From Nonomuraea lactucae (GTDB lineage Bacteria > Actinomycetota > Actinomycetes > Streptosporangiales > Streptosporangiaceae), in the NCBI RefSeq assembly GCF_003313395.1, contig NZ_QNFZ01000289.1:1-40223 (forward strand): a stretch of 40,223 nt of DNA. Reading direction: 5' to 3'. Below, one piece after another: positions 28,116-37,145 of the stretch (position 1 is its first letter; the number at the start of each line of letters is the position of its first letter). The translations under genes were made by a program, and so were the position numbers. A model generated the notes under the pieces. The model saw nothing but the letters and a program-made list of their open reading frames with translations. It searched no databases and had not been told where the DNA came from.

Positions 28116-29146
28116 GCGGCACCTCCGGGGAACGGCCGGCTGGGGATCTCCGCGCGCAGCGCTGGCGCGATCTCGGTCTGAAACAGCTCCAGCGCGTCCC
28201 GGTGCTGCTTCGGCGTGAGCCCGTCGGCGTCGGCGTGCAGGTGCATGACCTCGTGCCCGAACCGCTTGTGGTAGCGCAGCACCTTGTCGATGATCTGCTG
28301 CGGGCTGCCGACGAGGATGGAGCTGCGCTCGATGGCGTCCTCCAGGGTGGGGAAGACGATCGGCAGGCCGAGCTTACGCTGGAACTCCACGCGCGCCTCA
28401 TAGATCGGCCGGTAGGCCGCGATGGCGTCCTGCGAGGCGCGGGCCGCGTAGTAGCCCGCGGTCCCGGCCGCGACCAGCGCGTCGGCCGGGTCGTGGCCGT
28501 AGTGGGCCCAGCGTTCCCGGTAGTGGTCGATCAGCTCGGCGTAGGGGTCGATGGGGTTGGTGACGTTGGCGGAGAACAGTGGGTCGCCGTACCTGGCCGC
28601 CAGGTCCACCGACTCCTTGCTGGTGGCGCTGCCGTGCCAGACCCTGATCGGCCGCTGCAGGGGCCGCGGCCAGGTCTCGGCCTCGACCAGCGGCGGCCGG
28701 AAGCGGCCCTCCCAGGTGACCTTGTCCTCCCGCCAGAGGCGGCGGAACAGCTCGTACGACTCGCGGTTGCGCTCCCACTGGTCCTCGGCCGTGACGTGGA
28801 ACAGCTCGGCCTGCGCCGCGCCGTTGCCCTTGCCGATGATCAGCTCCAGCCGGCCCTCCGACAGATGGTCGAGCGTCGCGTAGTCCTCGTACGCCCGGAC
28901 CGGGTCGAGCAGGCTCAGCGTGGTGACCGCGGTGAACAGCCGGATCCTGGACGTCCTGGCCGCGATGTGGCTGAGGACCACCGGCGGCGAGGAGGAGATG
29001 AACGGCCGCTCGTGCCGCTCCCCCACGCCGAAACCGTCGAAGCCGAGCTCCTCGGCCAGCACGGCGTTCTCGACGACCTCGCGGAACCGTTCGGTGGGCG
29101 ACCGGTCGTCGTTGTGCACGATCAACGTGATGGCCAGGAATTTCAT
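28112..29146 (-). CDS. LLM-class flavin-dependent oxidoreductase
   Basis: A 344-residue luciferase-like monooxygenase: LAEELGFDGFGVGERHERPFISSSPPVVLSHIAARTSRIRLFTAV, TLDHLSEGRLELIIGKGNGAAQAELF, and IRVWHGSATSKESVDLAARYGDPLF. The C-terminal part contains HEVMHLHADADGLTPKQHRDALELF, typical of actinobacterial F420/FMN LLM enzymes. The start ATG 29146 overlaps the stop of the preceding gene; longer frames upstream are only the overlap with it. FMNH2 use is more likely than F420, given the flavin reductase in the operon. Confidence 0.9.
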   Translation of the reverse strand: MKFLAITLIVHNDDRSPTERFREVVENAVLAEELGFDGFGVGERHERPFISSSPPVVLSHIAARTSRIRLFTAVTTLSLLDPVRAYEDYATLDHLSEGRLELIIGKGNGAAQAELFHVTAEDQWERNRESYELFRRLWREDKVTWEGRFRPPLVEAETWPRPLQRPIRVWHGSATSKESVDLAARYGDPLFSANVTNPIDPYAELIDHYRERWAHYGHDPADALVAAGTAGYYAARASQDAIAAYRPIYEARVEFQRKLGLPIVFPTLEDAIERSSILVGSPQQIIDKVLRYHKRFGHEVMHLHADADGLTPKQHRDALELFQTEIAPALRAEIPSRPFPGGAA

Positions 29147-30321
29147 CGCACCTCCGCGTAACGGCCGGCCGGGCGCGGCAGGCCGAGCAGTCCGCGGAGC
29201 GTGGCGGCCTCGTACGCGTGCCGGAACGCCCCGCGTGCCCGCAGTTCGGCGGTCAGGCCGCGGGTGACTTGCTCCAGGTCGTGGGGCACGGCGCCGGGCC
29301 GCAGCCGGAAGCCCTCGATCCCGGCCCGCCGCCAATCCAGCAGCACGTCGGCCAGCTCTCCCGGGGTGCCGGTGAAGATCGCGGCGTCGGAGACGAGCTC
29401 GGCCCCGTCCAGTTCGTCGAGCCGCGCCTTGCGCCGGGCCGCGTCCTCGCCAAGGAGGACGAGCAGGTCGGCGAAGATCTTCACCTTGTCCGAGAGGCCT
29501 CTGACCTTCTCGACGATGGCGCGGGCCTGCTCGGCCGAGTGCGGCGTGACGTACACGACGTCGGCGCTGCTCGCGGCGAACTCGTACGGCAGCCGCGCGT
29601 GGGCGAGCACGGTGACGACCGGCTGGCCCTGCGGCGGGCGCGGCGTGATCGATGGCCCCTTGACGGAGAAGAACGGCCCGGCGAAGTCGATGTAGTGGAG
29701 CTTGTCCCGGTCGATGAACCGGCCGGTGGCCGTGTCGCGGATCTCGGCGTCGTCCTCCCAGCTGTCCCAGAGCCGCCGCGCCACCTCGACGGCGTCGGCG
29801 GCCTCGGCGAACAGGTCACGCAGGTGCGGGTCGGCGGACAGGTCCTCGCCGCCGGGCCGGTCGAGCAGCCGGTCGAGCAGCCGGTCGAGCGGGGGGAATT
29901 CTCTGCGGCCGAAGTGGCGCGCTTCCGAGGCACGCGGGGAGACCTGCGGCCGCCATCCGGCCCTGCCGCCGCTCACGTGGTCGAGCGTGGCGATGCCGAT
30001 GGCCACGTGGAACGGCTCGGTATGGGTGACGGTCGCGGTCGGCACCAGCCCGATCCTGCTGGTGAGCGGCGCCAGCCGGGACGCGAGCAGCACCGCGTCG
30101 AACCGGCCACGCACCTGGTCGGTACGGTCGTCGGAGGCGTCGGGCAGGGTGGACTGCAGGCCGAGGGCATCCTCGATGGTGACGAAGTCGAGCAGTCCCC
30201 GCTCGGCCTCGGCCACAAGTGCCGCCCAGTGGCGGGCCGAGAAGACGTCCGGCGAGGACTCGCGCCAGGCGGCGGGATGCCAGCCCGCGCCGTCCAGCGC
30301 CACGGCGAGGTGCAACGTCAT
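29143..30321 (-). CDS. LLM-class oxidoreductase, divergent member
   Basis: A 392-residue luciferase-like protein: LLDFVTIEDALGLQ, ASRLAPLTSRIGLVPTATVTHTEPFHVAIGIATLDHVSGGRAGWRPQVS, WDSWEDDAEIRD, HYIDFAGPFFSVKGPSITPRPPQGQPVV. This is the layout of the DszA/NtaA side of the family, where the WDSWEDDA and FSVKGP blocks are characteristic. LDRLLDRLLDR near residues 145-155 comes from a 12-base tandem repeat (29857-29890). It overlaps both neighbours by four bases. Probably a monooxygenase with a different substrate from its three paralogues. Confidence 0.88.
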   Translation of the reverse strand: MTLHLAVALDGAGWHPAAWRESSPDVFSARHWAALVAEAERGLLDFVTIEDALGLQSTLPDASDDRTDQVRGRFDAVLLASRLAPLTSRIGLVPTATVTHTEPFHVAIGIATLDHVSGGRAGWRPQVSPRASEARHFGRREFPPLDRLLDRLLDRPGGEDLSADPHLRDLFAEAADAVEVARRLWDSWEDDAEIRDTATGRFIDRDKLHYIDFAGPFFSVKGPSITPRPPQGQPVVTVLAHARLPYEFAASSADVVYVTPHSAEQARAIVEKVRGLSDKVKIFADLLVLLGEDAARRKARLDELDGAELVSDAAIFTGTPGELADVLLDWRRAGIEGFRLRPGAVPHDLEQVTRGLTAELRARGAFRHAYEAATLRGLLGLPRPAGRYAEVR

Positions 30322-31637
30322 GCGAGCTCCAGATGTTCACGCAGGGTGGTGCCGGTGTAGTGGGTGCGGAAGGCGCCGCGCTCCCGGAGCAGCGGCACCA
30401 CCCGGTCCACGAAGTCGTCCAGCCCGCCGGGCGTCAGGTGCGGCACGAGGATGAAGCCGTCGGCGGCGTCCGCCTGCACGTGCTCGTCGATCAGCCGGGC
30501 CACGCTCTCGGGGGTGCCGATGAACGTCTGCCGCCCGGTCACCTCGATGACCAGCTCGCGAATGCTCAGTCCCTTCTCCTCGGCCAGCGCCCGCCACTTG
30601 GCCGCCACGGCCGCTCGGTCCTTGATCGGCACCCGTCCCTGGGAGACGCCTTCCGACAGATCAGGCTCGACCTCTGGCAGCGGACCTTCCGGGTCGTAGG
30701 CCGACATGTCACGACCCCACACCTGCTCCAGGAACGCGATCGCGGTCTGCGGCCCGACCTGCTGGCGGCGGATGCGGGCGGCGTTCTCGGCGGCCTCCTC
30801 GTCGGTGTCGCCCAGCGCGAACGTCACGCCGGGCATGATCTTGAGCTGGTGCGGTTCGCGGCCGTACTTGGCCAGGCGGCGCTTGACGTCGGCGTAGAAG
30901 CGCTTGCCGTCCTCCAGACCGCCGTGCGGCGTGAAGATCACATCGGCGTTGGCGGCGGCGAACTCGCGCCCCTCGTCCGAGTCCCCTGCCTGGATGACCA
31001 CCGGGCGGCCCTGCGGGCTGCGGGGCAGCGTGAAGCGGCCCTCGACCGAGAAGTGCCTGCCCCGATGCTCGACCGTGCCGATGCCGCCCGGCCGGACGAA
31101 CGTGCCCGCCGCCGGGTCGGCGGCGACCGCGTCCGGGCTCCAGGAGTCCCACAGTTCGCGCGACAGCCGGACGAACTCGGCGGCCCGCTCGTACCGGTCG
31201 GCGCGGTCCAGGTAGCCGCCGCGGCGGAAGTTCTCGCCGGTGAAGGCGTCGGACGTGGTCACCACGTTCCACGCGGCCCGGCCCTCGCTCAGGTGGTCGA
31301 GCGTGGACAGGCGCCTGGCCAGCTCGTACGGCTCGTTGAAGGTCGCGTTGACGGTCCCTGCCAGGCCCAGCCGGTCGGTCACCGCGGCCAGCGCGCTCAG
31401 CACCGTGAGCGCCTCGGGCCGGCCCACCACGTCCAGATCGTGGATACGGCCTTTCAGCTCCCGCAGCCGCAGGCCCTCGGCCAGGAAGAAGAAGTCGAAC
31501 GTGCCACGCTCGGCCGTCCTGGCGAGATGGACGAAAGAGGCGAAGTCGATCTGGCTGCCGGAGCGGGGGTCGGTCCAGACGGTGGTGTTGTTCACCCCGG
31601 GGAAGTGGGCCGCCAAGTGCACCTGCTTACGCGTCAT
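30318..31637 (-). CDS. NtaA/DmoA-family FMN-dependent monooxygenase
   Basis: A 439-residue protein of the NtaA/SnaA/DszA class: FASFVHLARTAERGTFDFFFLAEGL, TVNATFNEPYELARRLSTLDHLSEGRAAWNVVTT, RRGGYLDRADRYERAAEFVRLSRELWDSW, HRGRHFSVEGRFTLPRSPQGRPVVIQAGDS. Members oxidise nitrilotriacetate, dibenzothiophene sulfone or dimethyl sulfide, and B. subtilis relatives act on N-acetylated S-alkyl cysteines. ATG 31637 overlaps the stop of the GST gene (ATGA). With the reductase at 32562 it forms a two-component system. Confidence 0.91.
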   Translation of the reverse strand: MTRKQVHLAAHFPGVNNTTVWTDPRSGSQIDFASFVHLARTAERGTFDFFFLAEGLRLRELKGRIHDLDVVGRPEALTVLSALAAVTDRLGLAGTVNATFNEPYELARRLSTLDHLSEGRAAWNVVTTSDAFTGENFRRGGYLDRADRYERAAEFVRLSRELWDSWSPDAVAADPAAGTFVRPGGIGTVEHRGRHFSVEGRFTLPRSPQGRPVVIQAGDSDEGREFAAANADVIFTPHGGLEDGKRFYADVKRRLAKYGREPHQLKIMPGVTFALGDTDEEAAENAARIRRQQVGPQTAIAFLEQVWGRDMSAYDPEGPLPEVEPDLSEGVSQGRVPIKDRAAVAAKWRALAEEKGLSIRELVIEVTGRQTFIGTPESVARLIDEHVQADAADGFILVPHLTPGGLDDFVDRVVPLLRERGAFRTHYTGTTLREHLELA

Positions 31638-32545
31638 CGGCCCCGCCCGTGCGGCGCGTCCCAGGTCGCGGGCAGGCCCTCGGTCGTCTCGCGGAAGGCG
31701 GGACGCTGGTAGAGGTCGCGGGCATACGGCCACAGGTGCTCGAAGTCGGCCAGCTCCCGCTCGCTGATGAGATGGCCGCGGTTGTACTCGGCGTCGAACC
31801 TGGCCAGCGTCACCCACAGCCGCACGTCGGCCTCGGTGATCGTGTCACCGGCCAGGAAGCGCTGCTCGGTCAGACGCTCATCCAGGCGTTCCAGTGCCGA
31901 GACGACCACGTGGCGCTCCCGCTCGCTCTCGTCCTCGGTGGCGGCGCGGGCCACGCGGGAGACGCCGGTGTTGACGTCGTAGTAGATCCACCCGTTCAGA
32001 TAGTCGATCTCCGGGCGGAGCGCGTCGGGGTAGAGGTCGATCGACGTGTCCGCCCACTGCTCGAACTGGGTGGCCAGGTCCACCGTGATGTTGGGGAAGT
32101 GGTTGCTCACGATCCCGTTCGTCTGCCGGTCCCAGAGGACGGGGACGGAGATGTGGCCGCCGTACCCTCGCTCGGTCGCCTCGTAGGCCTGCTCCAGCAG
32201 GGTGAAGCCGTTGACCGGGTCGGGGCCGCGGCGTTCCCTGAACGCCCAGCCCCGGCCGTCGCGATCGTCGTCCACGTAGGACAGCGAGACCACGTCCTCC
32301 AGGCCCTTGAGCTTGCGGACGATCGCGGCCCGCTGGGCGTACGGGCAGACCCGGGCGACGTAGAGGTGGTAACGGCCGGGCTCGGCGAGAAAGCCGCTGG
32401 AGCCGTCGGCGGTGATCCGGCCCTGGAAGGGGTAGACAGGACGGTTCCAGTCCGGGGACAGGTGCAGGCGGCCTGGGCCGTAGCGGCCGTACGCGGCGTG
32501 GTCGACAGGGCTCGCGTAGACCGTCGTCTGTGTGGAGATGGACAC
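31634..32545 (-). CDS. Xi-class GST / glutathionyl-hydroquinone reductase-like (ECM4 family)
   Basis: A 303-residue protein. The thioredoxin-fold active site is VCPYAQR with Cys67, the variant of the CPWAHR motif of ECM4/YqjG enzymes; GYGGHISVPVLWDRQTNGIVSNHFPNI binds the thiol; the C-terminal helical domain includes RFLAGDTITEADVRLWVTLARFD. Xi-class enzymes reductively remove a thiol from S-conjugates. In an actinomycete the thiol would probably be mycothiol. Here, between a flavin reductase and monooxygenases, it may release thiols from conjugates or oxidised intermediates. It starts 16 bases after the reductase gene. Confidence 0.9.
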   Translation of the reverse strand: MSISTQTTVYASPVDHAAYGRYGPGRLHLSPDWNRPVYPFQGRITADGSSGFLAEPGRYHLYVARVCPYAQRAAIVRKLKGLEDVVSLSYVDDDRDGRGWAFRERRGPDPVNGFTLLEQAYEATERGYGGHISVPVLWDRQTNGIVSNHFPNITVDLATQFEQWADTSIDLYPDALRPEIDYLNGWIYYDVNTGVSRVARAATEDESERERHVVVSALERLDERLTEQRFLAGDTITEADVRLWVTLARFDAEYNRGHLISERELADFEHLWPYARDLYQRPAFRETTEGLPATWDAPHGRGR

Positions 32546-32561: not shown

Positions 32562-33074
32562 TCAGGAGTCGGGGTGGGCCAGGAAGCGGCCGAAGCGGCC
32601 CTGGTGGTAGAGGAGGGGGCGGCCGGCGTGCCGTACGTCGGCCTCGGCGACCAGGCCGACCACCAGGAGGTGGTCGCCGACCTCGGCGCGTTCGTAGGGC
32701 AGGCAGATCAGGTGCGCCGAGACGTCCTGCAGCAGCGGCGCGCCCAACGGTCCGGACCGCCAGCGGGTGGGCGCGGCGAACCGGTCGATGCTCTTGCGGG
32801 CGAAGCGGGCCGCCAGCTCGGCCTGGTCGCTGGTCAGGATGTTGACCGCGAAGTGGTCCGCGGCGCCCAGTTGCGGCCAGGTGGTCGAGGAACGGTCAAC
32901 GTAGAAGGAGACCAGGGGCGGTTCGAGGCTGACCGAGGAGAAGGAGGTGGCGGTGAGGCCCACGGGGATGCCGTCGCTCTGCGCGGTGATGACCACGACG
33001 CCGCTGGCGTGCAAGGCGAGCGCCTGCCTGAAGTGGTCGGCCGCGATGGCCCGATCGGGCAGTGTGTCGGTCAT
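32562..33074 (-). CDS. Flavin reductase family protein
   Basis: A 170-residue flavin reductase-like protein: DHFRQALALHASGVVVITAQ, VGLTATSFSSVSLEPPLVSFYVDRSSTTWPQL, FAVNILTSDQAELAARFA. It reduces FMN with NAD(P)H and hands it to the monooxygenases encoded downstream. ATG 33074 starts at the conserved region; the frame is open 18 codons further to a GTG, but those codons have no family character. First structural gene of the operon, 215 bases after the leader peptide stop. Confidence 0.92.
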   Translation of the reverse strand: MTDTLPDRAIAADHFRQALALHASGVVVITAQSDGIPVGLTATSFSSVSLEPPLVSFYVDRSSTTWPQLGAADHFAVNILTSDQAELAARFARKSIDRFAAPTRWRSGPLGAPLLQDVSAHLICLPYERAEVGDHLLVVGLVAEADVRHAGRPLLYHQGRFGRFLAHPDS

Positions 33075-33129
33075 GCGGGTGCCCGTTCCGGTATGTACGG
33101 CCGGCGGGGGCCGGAAGTGGATGAGCACA

Positions 33130-33291
33130 TGATCACGAGAGAGTTCCTCACGGGAGAAGGCATGCTCACGCGGCGCCCCGGCGGCTGCCGGGGGCGCGGA
33201 GGAAAAGAGGACTCGTCGGCGAGGGCGTGGACGGCGCCGGCCACGCCGGGAGCACGAGGGTGGGATTTCGGCGGCTACGGGTCCATGATCA
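33130..33291 (-). promoter_or_regulatory. Leader stop-codon repeat: UGAUCAUG and CGUGAUCA
   Basis: In the transcript the leader-peptide stop lies in UGAUCAUG (33291-33284). CGUGAUCA (33137-33130), 56 bases before the first gene, can pair with it over eight bases (one G-U). The same complementarity, longer, is present in the other leader at 36586-36647. A ribosome stopped at the end of the leader peptide would mask one arm. Confidence 0.4.
33173..33197 (-). other. Strong hairpin in the leader of the monooxygenase operon
   Basis: GCGCCCCGGC pairs with GCCGGGGGCGC (one bulge) in the 214-base stretch between the leader-peptide stop and the flavin reductase gene. It is not followed by a U tract. 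It may be an attenuator or pause element controlled by leader translation; that is inference. Confidence 0.4.
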
Positions 33292-33363
33292 ACGACACTG
33301 TGCGCTGGCGACGTGGCCGAAATCCACGTGGGAGCGCCTTGTCAAGAGGAAGCCCTGGCTCAT
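33289..33363 (-). CDS. Leader peptide of the monooxygenase operon (24 aa)
   Basis: A 24-codon ORF with motif LTRR-S-HVD-F-GHVASAQC-R. It is identical at 18 of 24 positions to the ORF at 36644, which precedes the neighbouring transporter operon, although the flanking DNA differs. TRR-HVD peptides ending in a Cys codon are known in front of sulfur-assimilation genes in Streptomyces and relatives, and Cys-codon leaders act as cysteine-responsive attenuators in mycobacteria. The penultimate-codon Cys (TGT) would stall or slow the ribosome when cysteine is low. The A of its ATG is eight bases after a -10 box, so the mRNA is probably leaderless. There is no ribosome binding site. Confidence 0.8.
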   Translation of the reverse strand: MSQGFLLTRRSHVDFGHVASAQCR

Positions 33364-33370
33364 ACCGACG

Positions 33371-33410
33371 ACGCTAGGCCGCCACCCCGGATAAGTCAAT
33401 ATTTCCTACT
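33371..33410 (-). promoter_or_regulatory. Promoter of the monooxygenase operon with conserved upstream box
   Basis: TTGACT (33399-33394), 17 bases, TAGCGT (33376-33371), and start at A33363. Directly upstream of the -35 stands AGTAGGAAAT; AGTAGGAAA plus TTGACT recurs at the transporter promoter (36749-36765) with the same spacing to the start. The conserved box could be an activator site. 33411-33475, between this promoter and the end of the GNAT gene, holds nothing else recognised. Confidence 0.7.
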
Positions 33411-33475
33411 GGTTTAGAGGGTAATCCTCACGCGTCGCTCACAGGAGGGCGGGGACAGGCGTACGACACGGCCCT

Positions 33476-33931
33476 TCACATGCGAAGTCGCAGATCCTTG
33501 ACGAAGGCGAGCGGGCCCTGAGCGGGGCGGTCGGCCACGTCGAACTGCGGGTCGTACCCGCTGGCCAGGTAAAGGCGCACGGCCTCGGGCTGGCGTGGCC
33601 CCGTGGTCAGGTGGACGCGGCGGTAGCCGCGGCGCAGCGCCTCCCGCTCCAGCTCGCGTACGACGAGGCGGCCCAGCCCTTCGCCGCGGCGGCGCGGGTG
33701 CGTCCAGACCCGCTTGAGCTCGGCGGTCACCGCGTCGTAGCGGCGGAACGCGCCACCGGCCACGGTCTCGCCGCCGGACACCACGATCAGGAAGGCGCCG
33801 TGCGGCGGCGCGAACTCGGCCTCGGGATACCTGGCGAGCTCGTCGTTGCGGCCGTAGCGCGAGGTGTACTCCAGGTCCAGCCCGGCCAGCAGCGGCGCGG
33901 CGGCCGGGTCCGACATGCCGACGAGCCGCAC
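33476..33931 (-). CDS. GNAT-family N-acetyltransferase
   Basis: Acetyl-CoA-dependent acetyltransferase, 151 residues if started at GTG 33931. Family blocks: LLAGLDLEYTSRYG, AFLIVVSGGETVAGGAFRR, ELKRVWTHPRRRGEGLGRLVVRELEREALRRGY (motif A with the R-x-x-G-x-G pyrophosphate loop) and EAVRLYLASGYDP. The start is uncertain: ATG 33916 leaves out conserved residues, and a CTG overlapping the upstream stop (33952) is possible. It follows the binding-protein gene by 17 bases and is the last gene of the transporter operon. In B. subtilis, equivalent acetyltransferases acetylate S-modified cysteines before oxidative cleavage; the same role is inferred. Confidence 0.88.
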   Translation of the reverse strand: MRLVGMSDPAAAPLLAGLDLEYTSRYGRNDELARYPEAEFAPPHGAFLIVVSGGETVAGGAFRRYDAVTAELKRVWTHPRRRGEGLGRLVVRELEREALRRGYRRVHLTTGPRQPEAVRLYLASGYDPQFDVADRPAQGPLAFVKDLRLRM

Positions 33932-33948
33932 CTCCGCGGTGAGCTCGC

Positions 33949-34932
33949 TCAGGACTCCTCCCGCGGCAGGCCGGGCGGGTTGATCTGCGACTCGGGGATC
34001 GCCTCGTTGGCCAGGCCCCATCGGTCGAGGACCTCCTTGTACTTGCCGTTCTTGATCACTGTGTTGAGCGCCTCGTTGAGCGGCTTGACGAGGCCGTTGT
34101 CCTTCTTGGTCATGGCCGCGATGAGGCCCTGCAGGTCCGGCCCGGCGCCGGAGAAGGTGCCGACGATCCTGGACCCGCCGCTGACGGCGATGTTGTAGGC
34201 GATGTTCGGGTTCGGGCCGAAGTAGGCCTGAACGCGGCCGGACTTGAGCCCCAGCAGCACGTCGCTGTACCTCTCGTAATAGAGGATCTCGACCGGCTTC
34301 AGCCCGGCGGCCTTGTTCTGCTTGTCCCAGTCGAGAAGGATCTTCTCCTGGTTCGTGCCCGAGCCGACCGAAACGCGCAGCCCGGCGATGTCGGCGGGCT
34401 TGGCGATGGCCTTGATGGGGCTGTTCTCGGGGACCTGCCAGCCGAGCTGGTCGACCCGGTACGTCGCGAAGTCGTAGGTGTCCTTGCGCTCCTCCGTGAC
34501 CGTGACGTTGTTGAAGACGACCTCGTCCTTGCCGGACTTGGCGGCCAGGAAGAGGTTCTCCCACGAGCTGATCTCCGGGGAGATCTCCAGGCCCAGCACG
34601 TCGGCCACGAGCTGGGCGACGTCGGTCTCCACTCCGATCAGGGTGGTGTCGTCGTCGGCGCGGAACACCAGCGGCGCCGCGCCCTGGCCGCTGAAGCCGA
34701 CGGTGAGCTTGCCGTCGGCGGCGATGTCCTTCGGCACCTGGGCCGCGATGGAGTCCACCTTGTCGGCTCGCACCCGGTTCTGGTCCGGGCCAGTATTGAT
34801 CTTCTTGCCCGCCACCACGGGGGCGGTCGTCGCAGACGGGGCGGTAACGGTGGGCTCGGCGCCACAGGCGGCGGTCAGCAGGAGGAGCGCGGGCACGCCG
34901 AAGGCCCGCGCGAGCGAAGCGCGCATGTCCAT
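33949..34932 (-). CDS. Polar amino-acid ABC transporter substrate-binding lipoprotein
   Basis: A 327-residue lipoprotein: signal ending LTAAC (Cys23), then a Thr/Ala/Pro linker. The mature part is SBP family 3: KLTVGFSGQGAAPLVFRADDDTTLIGVETDVAQLVADVLGLE, WENLFLAAKSGKDEVVFNNVTVTEERKDTYDFATY, and IAGLRVSVGSGTNQEKILLDWDKQ. Binding proteins of this family take polar amino acids, cystine and S-modified cysteines. The Cys-type leader upstream points to a sulfur-containing ligand. ATG 34932 and ATG 34926 are both possible starts. The ATPase gene ends 13 bases upstream. Confidence 0.92.
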   Translation of the reverse strand: MDMRASLARAFGVPALLLLTAACGAEPTVTAPSATTAPVVAGKKINTGPDQNRVRADKVDSIAAQVPKDIAADGKLTVGFSGQGAAPLVFRADDDTTLIGVETDVAQLVADVLGLEISPEISSWENLFLAAKSGKDEVVFNNVTVTEERKDTYDFATYRVDQLGWQVPENSPIKAIAKPADIAGLRVSVGSGTNQEKILLDWDKQNKAAGLKPVEILYYERYSDVLLGLKSGRVQAYFGPNPNIAYNIAVSGGSRIVGTFSGAGPDLQGLIAAMTKKDNGLVKPLNEALNTVIKNGKYKEVLDRWGLANEAIPESQINPPGLPREES

Positions 34933-34945
34933 GTGTCCTTAGGAG

Positions 34946-35707
34946 TCAGAGAACTTTGCTGAGGAAAGTGCGGGTACGGTCCTGTGCGGGGGCGTCCAGG
35001 ATCTGGGCGGGCGGTCCGAGCTCGACGATCCGGCCGGCGTCCATGAAGGCCACGGTGTCGGCCACCTCTCGGGCGAACCCGATCTCGTGGGTGACCACGA
35101 TCATCGTCGTGCCGCCGCGGGCGAGGTCTTTGATGACGTCCAGCACCTCGCCCACCAGCTCGGGGTCCAGCGCGGAGGTCGGCTCGTCGAACAGCAGCAG
35201 CTTGGGCTCCAGCGCCAGCGCCCTGGCGATGACGACACGCTGCTGCTGACCGCCGGAGAGCGTGCGGGGATAGGCGCCGGCCTTGTCCGCCAGGCCCACC
35301 CGGGCCAGCAGGCGTTCGGCCAGCGGCTCGACCTCGCCGCGTGGCCGGCGCTGGGCCGACAGCGGCGCCTCCATGACGTTCTGCTGGACGGTGAGGTGCG
35401 GGAACAGGTTGAACGCCTGGAAGACGAACCCGATCTGGGTGCGCTGCCGCAGCACCTCGCGTTCGGGCAGCTCGAGCAGGCGGTCGCCGACCTGGCGGTA
35501 GCCGAGCAAGTGCCCGTCCACCCGGACCGAGCCGCGGTCCACCTTCTCCAGGTGGTTGATCGTACGCAGCAGCGTGGACTTCCCCGACCCCGACGGGCCC
35601 ACGATCACCAGGACCTGCCCCTGGCCGACCTCCAGGTCCACACCGCGCAGCACGTGCAGGGAACCGAAGCTCTTGTGCACCCCACGCAGCTCCACCATGG
35701 GGGTCAT
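34946..35707 (-). CDS. Polar amino-acid ABC transporter ATPase
   Basis: A 253-residue ATPase of the GlnQ/HisP class: Walker A VGPSGSGKST (36-45), Q-loop FVFQAFNLFPHLTV, signature LSGGQQQRVVIARALA, Walker B LLLFDEPTSALDPE, switch VVTHEIGFAREVAD. The ELVGEVLDVI and GPPAQILDAP blocks are standard. The start ATG 35707 overlaps the permease stop (ATGA). It energises the permease and receptor encoded on each side. Confidence 0.95.
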   Translation of the reverse strand: MTPMVELRGVHKSFGSLHVLRGVDLEVGQGQVLVIVGPSGSGKSTLLRTINHLEKVDRGSVRVDGHLLGYRQVGDRLLELPEREVLRQRTQIGFVFQAFNLFPHLTVQQNVMEAPLSAQRRPRGEVEPLAERLLARVGLADKAGAYPRTLSGGQQQRVVIARALALEPKLLLFDEPTSALDPELVGEVLDVIKDLARGGTTMIVVTHEIGFAREVADTVAFMDAGRIVELGPPAQILDAPAQDRTRTFLSKVL

Positions 35708-36570
35708 GCCCGCCCCCTGCCGTAGTACCGCTCCACGTAGTGCTGCACGATCGACAGAACGGTGGTCAGGATCAGGTACCAGATGGCCGCGACCAGCAGC
35801 AGCGCCATGACCCTGCCGTTGCGGTTGTAGATCACCTGCACCTGATAGAACAGCTCGGGCAGCGCCATGATGTACACCACCGACGTCCCCTTGACCAGGC
35901 CGATGATCTCGTTGCCGGCGTTGGGCACGATGGTCCGCATGGCCTGCGGCAGGATGATCCGGAACAGCCGCCGCGCCGGCGGCAGTCCCAGAGCGGCCGC
36001 CGCCTCCCGCTGGCCGTGGTCCACCGACAGCAGACCACCGCGGACGATCTCGGCGGCGTACGCGGCCTGGTGCAGCGCCAGCCCGAGCACCGCCGCGGTC
36101 AGCGGCCCGATCAGATCCATGGTGCCGAAGTCGAAGAACCCGGGCCCGAACGGCACGCCCACCGACAGCCGGGGGTAGAGCAGCGCGAGGTTGTACCAGA
36201 ACAGCAGTTGCAGGATGAGCGGCACGGACCGGAACAACCACACGTATCCCCAGGCCACCGACGACAGCAGCCGGTTGGGCGAGATCCGCATCAGGGCCAG
36301 CACCGTGCCGAGCGCGAACCCGAGCCCGATGCCCAGCGCGGTCAGCTCCAGCGTGAGCAGCACCGAGCGCACCACCGACGGGGCGAACAGGTACTGCCCG
36401 ACGATGTCCCACTCCCAGGCGGGGTTGGTCACCAGGGCGCTGGCGGCCATGGCCAGCAAGACGAGCACGACGACCGCGGCCAGCCACCGCAGCGGACGGC
36501 GGGCCGTCACCACCTCCAGCGGCCGCCCCGCGTCCTGATGGGGCGGCGCCTGCAGGTCGGGCAGCATCAT
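35704..36570 (-). CDS. Polar amino-acid ABC transporter permease
   Basis: A 288-residue HisM/GlnP-class permease. After a hydrophilic N-terminal tail there are about five membrane helices; the EAA loop is AAYAAEIVRGGLLSVDHGQREAAAALGLP; LILQLLFWYNLALLYP and PNAGNEIIGLVKGTSVV are family blocks. As the only permease gene it would work as a homodimer. ATG 36570 (followed by a second ATG) has GGAGG six bases upstream. The 5' leader contains a Cys-type leader peptide and an inverted repeat at 36586-36647. Confidence 0.94.
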   Translation of the reverse strand: MMLPDLQAPPHQDAGRPLEVVTARRPLRWLAAVVVLVLLAMAASALVTNPAWEWDIVGQYLFAPSVVRSVLLTLELTALGIGLGFALGTVLALMRISPNRLLSSVAWGYVWLFRSVPLILQLLFWYNLALLYPRLSVGVPFGPGFFDFGTMDLIGPLTAAVLGLALHQAAYAAEIVRGGLLSVDHGQREAAAALGLPPARRLFRIILPQAMRTIVPNAGNEIIGLVKGTSVVYIMALPELFYQVQVIYNRNGRVMALLLVAAIWYLILTTVLSIVQHYVERYYGRGRA

Positions 36571-36585
36571 GAGCCGCCTCCAATT

Positions 36586-36647
36586 TTGATCACGGAATCA
36601 CTCCTGGACAGGAGGAAGGGACGTTGATGACGAGATTTCGTGATCAA
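36586..36647 (-). promoter_or_regulatory. Inverted repeat spanning the leader stop, with anti-SD element
   Basis: The arms, 36634-36647 and 36586-36599, are 14 bases each and pair except at one position. In the RNA the 5' arm starts with the last base of the final His codon, takes in the UGA stop and runs ten bases on. The 3' arm ends five bases before GGAGG of the permease gene. Inside lie CUCCU-GUCC-AGGAG, which can form its own hairpin, and CCUUCCUCC (36619-36611), which could pair with that GGAGG. A ribosome at the leader stop would block the long stem. The structure is consistent with translation-coupled attenuation. Confidence 0.55.
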
Positions 36648-36718
36648 TGACACTGCGCGCTGGCGACGTGGCCATGGTCCACGTGCGGACGTCGGGTCAG
36701 GTTCGCGGCCTGGCTCAT
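36644..36718 (-). CDS. Leader peptide of the amino-acid transporter operon (24 aa)
   Basis: A 24-codon ORF with motif LTRR-P-HVD-H-GHVASAQC-H. It shares 18 of 24 residues with the leader at 33289, including MSQ at the start. The Cys codon is again next to last. The A of ATG 36718 is eight bases after the -10, giving a leaderless start; an in-frame ATG two codons earlier (36724) would lie upstream of the predicted start site. It ends 73 bases before the permease gene and overlaps one arm of the inverted repeat. Confidence 0.8.
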   Translation of the reverse strand: MSQAANLTRRPHVDHGHVASAQCH

Positions 36719-36725
36719 GACCATG

Positions 36726-36765
36726 AAGCTACGAGCACATCAGCATAAAGTCAACTTTTCCTACT
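36726..36765 (-). promoter_or_regulatory. Promoter of the transporter operon with conserved upstream box
   Basis: TTGACT (36754-36749), 17 bases, TAGCTT (36731-36726), start at A36718. AGTAGGAAAA precedes the -35, as at the other sulfur promoter. Further upstream ATACATGTAT (36770-36779) is a 10-bp palindrome not present in the other copy. Confidence 0.7.
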
Positions 36766-36779
36766 TGATATACATGTAT

Positions 36780-37145
36780 TTGGCCGACGGCCGCGGCGAT
36801 CCGCTGGGGAAGCGACCCGGACAGGGCGGCGGGCTTCGGCGTCGAGCACGGAGCCCCGGCCGCCCGTACTCCCGCCGAAGCCGCGTCGCAGGCCGCCGTC
36901 GTCACGCTAACCCCGTCCACCGGCCTCTACCTGGGCCTTCGCGACGTACGGCCGGGCACGCCGGTGGCGGCCGCGGGCTCGGACGCAGTCTCACGCCGGG
37001 GGCCCAGGGGCCGGGAGGCCACCGGCAAGGGGGCAGCCGGGGGAGCTCCGCCCCCCGTCGGAGCGCCCGGAGCACGCGCGCGGAGCGCGCCCCGGCGCGG
37101 AGGCCCTTGCCTTTGGGGCCCTGGGTTTCTACCGGCTCTGGGTCT
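36780..37145 (+). other. Gene-less gap with a possible coding scrap
   Basis: No gene is recognised between the transporter promoter and nusB. On the plus strand one frame (from about 36810) reads WGSDPDRAAGFGVEHGAPAA and then AAVVTLTPSTGLYLGLRDVR, PGTPVAAAGSDAVS with mainly G/C third positions, and stays open to 37149, but there is no start codon with a ribosome site and no known family. The last 130 bases (37000-37140) are very G/C-rich and would form several weak hairpins. Confidence 0.3.

Follow-up and report, generated by a model that had tools for sequence, protein, structure and literature searches.

Two predicted leaderless cysteine leaders with a fixed UGU putative sensor codon and a candidate stop-to-start lock head sulfur-type operons in Nonomuraea lactucae

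The window analysed here, a stretch of 40,223 nt (assembly GCF_003313395.1, contig NZ_QNFZ01000289.1, positions 1 to 40,223; G+C 0.709) from the 8.67 Mb genome of Nonomuraea lactucae, carries on its minus strand two paralogous 24-codon open reading frames (ORFs), leader 1 (MSQGFLLTRRSHVDFGHVASAQCR) and leader 2 (MSQAANLTRRPHVDHGHVASAQCH), each heading an operon of sulfur-type genes (Table 1). Each leader probably acts as a leaderless sensor of cysteine and thereby controls whether its operon is translated. On sequence grounds the two are a genuine, widespread Cys leader of known kind in a variant form, to which the present analysis appears to add a UGU codon rule, a stop-to-start complementarity, a coupled relay ORF and a palindromic operator, none of which was contained in an earlier sequence-only reading of this DNA.

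We infer stalling, masking, coupling and the response to cysteine to proceed as follows. When Cys-tRNA is plentiful, the ribosome would pass the single UGU codon, terminate and leave, and the freed stop region UGAUC[A/G]CG would pair with a downstream GUGAUC start and hide it. When Cys-tRNA is short, the ribosome would wait with UGU in the A site, covering UGAUCA, and the start would stay open; in toeprint geometry a stalled ribosome covers about 12 nt. In substrate-binding-protein operons GUGAUC would be the gene's own start, and in other operons it would open a short relay ORF that hands the ribosome on, its stop codon overlapping the real gene's start. Transcription of these operons as one regulon would be under a common palindromic operator.

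The sequence-only reading had described the leaders as identical at 18 of 24 residues, with Cys next to last in both, behind TTGACT-17-TAGCnT promoters whose -10 box lies eight bases from the ATG, and reading of the sequence confirmed each of these points: the spacer is 17 nt in both promoters, and 7 nt separate the -10 box from the start, the A of the ATG being the eighth base. At sequence level the leaderless geometry holds for both leaders. Leader 2 has a further in-frame ATG at 36724, which lies only one base past the -10 box, so that 36718 is the likelier start. A generic sigma-70 scan of the window, with TATAAT as its -10 consensus, listed neither promoter, although both match the -10 (TAnnnT) and -35 (nTGACn) elements reported for Streptomyces lividans (PMC8079986). 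Among 114 distinct leaders compiled from fetched related loci, a set for which the promoter was among the selection criteria, the -35 box is TTGACT in 106, the spacer 17 nt in 102, the -10-to-start distance 7 nt in 90 and 6 nt in 24, the start ATG in 110 and the last Cys next to last in 86. A manual count in a search by peptide only (90 loci, 16 without a peptide match, and the C941 locus counted twice among the 74) found a -35 box matching TTGACT at at least 5/6 positions together with TAnnnT 6-7 nt before the start at 66/74 loci, and the promoter-to-ATG spacing appears to be more than chance. The interval first assigned to the pair (33289..36718) also takes in most of the leader 2 operon.

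The sensor Cys codon is UGU in 70/70 leaders from profile-found loci, compared with 2/64 Cys codons in their first downstream genes. Within these leaders, Cys codons that precede the sensor are UGC in 29/37 and UGU in 8/37. In the wider family of 74 loci (4 from the own genome, 70 at class level; 13 without a clear leader) the sensor is UGU in 56/61, including all four general own-genome leaders. Four of the five non-UGU class leaders are polycysteine leaders; in the fifth (L197, ...SACCRRAC) the rule picked the first of two adjacent Cys codons, of which the second is UGU. UGU may have been chosen for its slower wobble decoding.

Conservation of the peptide raises a rival that is compatible with the lock, namely that the peptide LTRR-HVD-x-x-[HR]-V-ASA-x-C itself causes arrest while in the exit tunnel, where nascent-chain contacts would prolong a stall triggered by UGU decoding. 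The Ala two residues before the Cys, present in 69/70 leaders and written with all four codons, is conserved beyond the needs of a codon sensor, and leaders throughout the class, polycysteine ones among them, have a similar core. Part of this conservation may be accounted for by an RNA hairpin over HVDxxHV, a segment that is stabler than when recoded synonymously, both for the family (mean z -0.78, p 3e-7, n=70; z -0.71, p 1e-4 for 56 distinct segments) and at class level (mean z -0.88, p 9e-5, n=61, with recodings drawn from family codon usage). We regard arrest by the peptide as somewhat unlikely. The hairpin itself may pace the ribosome. An association between the H/R residue and the Val codon within it was considered and rejected (p 0.08).

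The proposed lock rests on what follows the sensor, usually one codon, UGA and UC[A/G]CG. This stop arm is complementary to a downstream GUGAUC start preceded by a Shine-Dalgarno (SD) sequence in 61 of the 112 leaders with enough downstream sequence, 18 having the stop arm only, 33 neither arm and none the start arm only. One locus pattern demanded TGATC after the stop and enriched the arm among loci so found; leaders from profile-found loci give 29, 12, 29 and 0 for the same classes (p 2.6e-10, kinship ignored). The interval from leader to start is 44-296 nt, and 8-12 contiguous pairs are formed in 59/61, with internal mismatches in L015 and L056. Final arm counts, intervals and pairing medians refer to these 61 leaders, obtained from a first set of 67 by removing six whose start arm lies inside coding sequence (L112, L082, L045, L037, L060, L068), and the first covariation test, the folding of the window leaders and the SD-start opening costs refer to the 67. 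Among profile-found leaders the last Cys occupies the final or penultimate codon in 40/41 with the arm versus 8/29 without it; the arm is thus nearly confined to leaders with Cys at the end, which fits the requirement that the footprint mask it. In L030, L031, L038, L048, L053, L057 and similar leaders the last Cys stands 3-6 codons from the end, and 21/22 profile-found cases of this kind have no stop arm.

Covariation was detected at arm position 8, which is Watson-Crick in 33/61 versus 23.1 in shuffles (p 0.003; 30/60 distinct pairs, p 0.013, in the first 67 leaders), and Watson-Crick covariation was absent at positions 7, 9 and 10; with G-U counted, position 7 gave p 0.0095 in the first 67. 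The arm pairing probability has a median of 0.98 and exceeds 0.5 in 44/61. In the model, opening the start codon costs 5.0 kcal/mol without a ribosome, 2.7 when one stands at the Cys codon and 5.6 when it stands five codons earlier, and the stalled ribosome lowers this cost in 49/61 leaders. Pairing reached p<0.05 against shuffled start regions in 58% of 53 arm-bearing leaders.

Several results weigh against the lock. The covariation is modest and confined to a single position, pairing of the base that precedes the stop is less frequent than in shuffles (8/61 versus 18.9), and 6 of the first 67 start arms fell within coding sequence. Tested against the start regions of other loci, only 8% of the 53 leaders reach p<0.05, because most loci share one arm; the arms also hold a GATC palindrome, and the loci are related to each other. 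The lock is not universal, given the 18 leaders with the stop arm only and the 33 with no arm, and leaders without arms show, as a class, no significant pairing of the post-Cys region with the SD or start. In the model, pausing at the stop codon would mask the arm as well. At leader 1 the arms barely pair (probability 0.005), and the cost of opening rises from 0.5 to 3.9 once stalling is modelled. At leader 2 they do pair (0.81), but the gain at the start codon is small (3.3 to 2.8), the cost of opening the SD-start region goes up with modelled stalling from 7.4 to 8.8 kcal/mol, and the 159-nt leader is no stabler than shuffles (z -0.76). The SD of leader 2 also lies in an inner hairpin of the minimum free energy (MFE) fold. 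Folding supports a lock, as modelled, at the 36.7-kb leader and not at the 33.3-kb leader. Several leaders like leader 1 (L043, L124, L134, L145) read UGAUCACGG where leader 1 reads UGAUCAUGG, so that the lock of leader 1 may be decayed.

For leaders that lack the GATC arms, the idea that the post-Cys region generally pairs with the SD or start was considered and, for the class, rejected, p<0.05 being reached in 14% of 22 armless and 11% of 9 stop-arm-only leaders. The 14% are three TauD leaders (L090, L091, L116). In these and in the TauD leader at G000:C1057 the sensor Cys is followed by codons (CCUUCCAG or CCUUCCG) with complementarity to the SD region a short way downstream (CUGGAAGG or CGGAAGG), which we read as a putative different lock of the same logic.

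At 20 loci, 5 of them profile-found, GUGAUC opens an ORF of 8-27 codons, and in 20/20 the stop codon of this ORF shares bases with the start codon of a long one (AUGA/GUGA). The genes behind these relay ORFs are flavin reductases, luciferase-like monooxygenases (L125, L135), the operon 2 permease and its relative L138. The relay peptides vary widely beyond Val-Ile, so that the ORF and not its product seems important. At L125 and L135 the relay ORFs look like the beginning of a substrate-binding lipoprotein gene (VITTRHALLA..., VIKIRHA...), as though a transporter gene were trimmed to its start. A broader reading, put forward tentatively and at less than an even chance, is that of a portable three-cistron relay, in which a leaderless UGU-only sensor tuned by the nascent peptide, a stop/GUG lock and a throw-away AUGA relay ORF would be placed before unrelated genes, the UGU sensor underlying sulfur control across Actinomycetes.

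No minus-strand terminator-like site was found in 33050-36800, and five consecutive U are present in the leader-to-start interval of 1/61 leaders; the intrinsic terminator that a classical transcription attenuator has between leader and gene was therefore not found here, which favours translational control. Control of transcription could also be exerted by Rho, which with Cys plentiful would terminate in the untranslated post-leader stretch unless a UGU-stalled ribosome or relay translation blocked it. Rho has been suggested for Cys leaders without terminators in the available part of Seliverstov et al. (2005, PMC1262725), 40/61 starts lie 100-296 nt from the leader, a long way for a simple lock, and both the 33/112 armless leaders and the poorly pairing arms of leader 1 would be accommodated. 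However, action by Rho leaves unexplained the match between the stop arm and the start of whichever translated ORF comes next, the 20/20 AUGA/GUGA overlaps and the intervals below 100 nt in 21/61, and we consider it unlikely.

A palindromic operator, which can be written ATTTCMTRY-N7-GTAGGAAAT, was identified from the conservation of ATTTCaTGtAAAnCcaGTAGGaAAT at a fixed position upstream of the -35 box in 70 leaders. TAGGAAA is exact in 46/70 (L090, L091 and L096 are without it in this form), and when the right half is reverse-complemented the left half agrees with it at a mean of 5.5/9 positions, compared with 1.8 in neighbouring segments, the halves agreeing at at least 6/9 in 37/70. In the own genome a pattern of operator core and -35 box, with three degenerate positions, is exact at three sites, all of them GHVASAQC leaders, and a reversed-pattern control gave 0; besides the window leaders, the third is at C941 (peptide MSPGLYLTTRPHVDFGHVASAQCR), ahead of a substrate-binding lipoprotein gene. 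Core and -35 box were present in 34/40 genomes of the genus (control 0/40). The earlier proposal that both operons answer to cysteinyl-tRNA supply as one regulon is strengthened as to the regulon by the same operator at both promoters; their response to cysteinyl-tRNA we infer.

This operator also bears on whether TGATCACG and CGTGATCA could be protein-binding DNA sites and not RNA arms. GATC-centred inverted sequences at two places do resemble operator halves, and the orientation of the second element, fixed by the search, argues neither way. Their position exactly on a stop and a start codon with spacing anywhere in 44-296 nt, the changes at arm position 8 that follow each other, and the presence of a separate, clear operator at the promoter make such sites very improbable.

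An operator-first search gave 20 sites, with a leader at 13, a truncated ORF at one and none at six, which indicates that operator and leader are separable; some of these sites probably overlap with leader-search loci and are not fully independent. At L233, L237 and L242 operator and promoter are followed by an ATG at the leaderless position that opens no short leader, and these may be leaderless genes. The own genome has one single-mismatch operator, at about 1047-1062 of G000:C672 (L223), before a FAD-dependent reductase-like gene without a leader; a similar gene in Planobispora siamensis (L112) does have a GHVTSAQC leader, which we read as the possible gain or loss of a leader beneath a retained operator.

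The reading of the leaders as Cys attenuators fits a known kind, represented by NCBIfam NF042934 (cis_reg_atten, 'putative leader peptide') and the mycobacterial polycysteine leaders. Both window leaders have the NF042934 pattern, a short ORF with an RR-HVD ... C core ahead of a sulfur-type gene, and share its motif order TRR-HVD-xx-RV-ASA-x-C; their scores of 10.4 and 15.6 bits do not reach the cut-off of 27, and they end in GHVASAQC where other members have, for example, CRVASALC or QRVRSAIC. Three further own-genome members score above the cut-off, before genes for a nitrite/sulfite reductase-like protein (C551), a DUF4395-like protein (C1013) and a 2-oxoacid oxidoreductase subunit (C731), and one below it, before a TauD-like gene (C1057); gene names at these loci and at C941 come from reading of translations, without family search. 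An own-genome pattern requiring an Arg, His or Gln codon before HVD gave zero matches. In a search of other genomes, as had been suggested, a profile of three GHVASAQC peptides matched 91/200 family genomes (E<=0.001; leader 1, itself among the source sequences, at 2.9e-18), and relatives of the leaders occur across Actinomycetes, 93/148 class genomes (own family included) having NF042934 matches above the cut-off. Named relatives (48 loci) are mostly from Nonomuraea, with others from Streptosporangium, Planobispora, Planomonospora, Sphaerisporangium and one '[Actinomadura] parvosata'; Nonomuraea and Planobispora belong to the Streptosporangiaceae. No Rfam match was found in the window at gathering score, nor in eight related loci at E<=0.01.

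In ermC/cat-type translational attenuators a stalled ribosome frees a hidden initiation site. The proposed lock would share this principle, with tRNA charging as the signal and the start codon hidden by the leader's own stop codon. Translational attenuation by a stalled ribosome is described in the available part of PMC13236596, and mycobacterial leaderless polycysteine attenuators (NCBIfam NF042936 Ms4527A), short leaderless ORFs with terminal Cys that attenuate translation downstream, in the available parts of PMC9031893 and PMC13236596. As far as these excerpts go, the short ORF with terminal Cys, predicted to be leaderless here, is common to both systems, whereas the mycobacterial ORFs have a Cys run and the window leaders one UGU codon each; the stop-to-start arm pair and the relay ORF are features here, the mycobacterial system being compared by description only. 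An AVDLCRV-like core is found in polycysteine leaders L150, L153, L166 and L167. The uORFC-8-2 motif upstream of cysS in Rhodobacterales is likewise a Cys-codon leader controlling a Cys gene but, in the available part of its description (PMC8632094), has two tandem Cys codons, UGC dominating, and an intrinsic terminator, in contrast to the single UGU here, where no terminator-like site was found. The available part of the S. lividans study (PMC8079986) gives eight leader peptides, none assigned to cysteine. At title and abstract level, with the primary mycobacterial polycysteine-attenuator paper outside the comparison, no description of this hiding element, sensor codon rule or relay ORF was found. 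The stop/start lock, the fixed UGU codon and the coupling ORF would be simple, separable and individually mutable parts, operator and leader together define an organosulfur regulon in a form that can be searched for, and the UGU rule offers a codon-level handle on how one codon might sense tRNA charging where genes otherwise avoid UGU.

Table 1. Minus-strand features of the two leader loci, in window coordinates
Feature	Position	Strand	Basis or remark
Leader 1 ORF, 24 codons + TGA	33289..33363	-	ATG 33363, stop 33289-33291
Promoter 1, TTGACT-17-TAGCGT	33371..33399	-	-35 TTGACT 33394-33399, -10 TAGCGT 33371-33376; sequence read; geometry same in relatives
Operator 1, upstream of promoter 1	33401..33425	-	right half GTAGGAAAT exact, left half weak; column conservation, exact core
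Leader 1 sensor Cys codon UGU	33295..33297	-	UGU 70/70 in relatives
Leader 1 ORF-internal hairpin, codons HVDFGHV	33310..33330	-	excess stability versus synonymous recodings (family, class)
Leader 1 stop arm UGAUCAUGG	33283..33291	-	pairing probability at locus 0.005
Leader 1 start arm UCGUGAUCA	33130..33138	-	
Leader 1 second short ORF VIMCSSTSGPRRPYIPERAPA	33071..33136	-	GTG start after GAGG; stop overlaps flavin reductase ATG (ATGA)
Leader 2 ORF, 24 codons + TGA	36644..36718	-	ATG 36718, stop 36644-36646
Promoter 2, TTGACT-17-TAGCTT	36726..36754	-	-35 TTGACT 36749-36754, -10 TAGCTT 36726-36731; sequence read
Operator 2, upstream of promoter 2	36756..36780	-	column conservation, exact core
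Leader 2 sensor Cys codon UGU	36650..36652	-	sequence; UGU 70/70 in relatives
Leader 2 ORF-internal hairpin, codons HVDHGHV	36665..36685	-	family test; MFE fold of leader 2 without this hairpin
Leader 2 stop arm UGAUCACGAAAUC	36634..36646	-	present in MFE fold
Leader 2 start arm GAUUCCGUGAUCA	36587..36599	-	pairing probability 0.81
Leader 2 second short ORF VIKIGGGS	36567..36593	-	GTG start after AGGAG; stop overlaps permease ATG
Operon 1 flavin reductase, first gene	32562..33074	-	Pfam PF01613
Operon 1 remainder after flavin reductase	29143..32545	-	
Operon 1 glutathione-transferase-like gene	31634-32545	-	family searches
Operon 1 NtaA/DmoA FMN monooxygenase	30318-31670	-	family searches
Operon 1 second luciferase-like monooxygenase	29143-30321	-	family searches
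Operon 2, whole	33476..36570	-	Pfam
Operon 2 ABC permease	35704-36570	-	Pfam
Operon 2 ATPase	34946-35707	-	Pfam
Operon 2 substrate-binding protein	33949-34932	-	Pfam
Operon 2 GNAT acetyltransferase	33476-33949	-	Pfam

The presence of sulfur-type genes behind both leaders was supported by Pfam and NCBIfam reading of the operons. The match of the operon 1 flavin reductase to PF01613 was obtained on the GTG-started ORF 32562-33128, and its NCBIfam matches lie under the cut-offs. The nearest NCBIfam models of the operon 2 permease and ATPase are cystine transporters, with scores under their cut-offs, and the best NCBIfam match of the binding protein is a kinase model (positions 302-597), a cystine-binding protein being second. 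The first downstream products of 111 leaders formed blastp clusters of 54, 37, 10, 3, 3, 2, 1 and 1, sizes that are approximate since the automatic ORF list contains wrong frames or partners (L020 and L033 misplaced, L078 among the flavin reductases); on manual reading they are mainly substrate-binding proteins, flavin reductases, FMN-reductase-like proteins, luciferase-like monooxygenases, TauD, permeases of the leader 2 type and single others.

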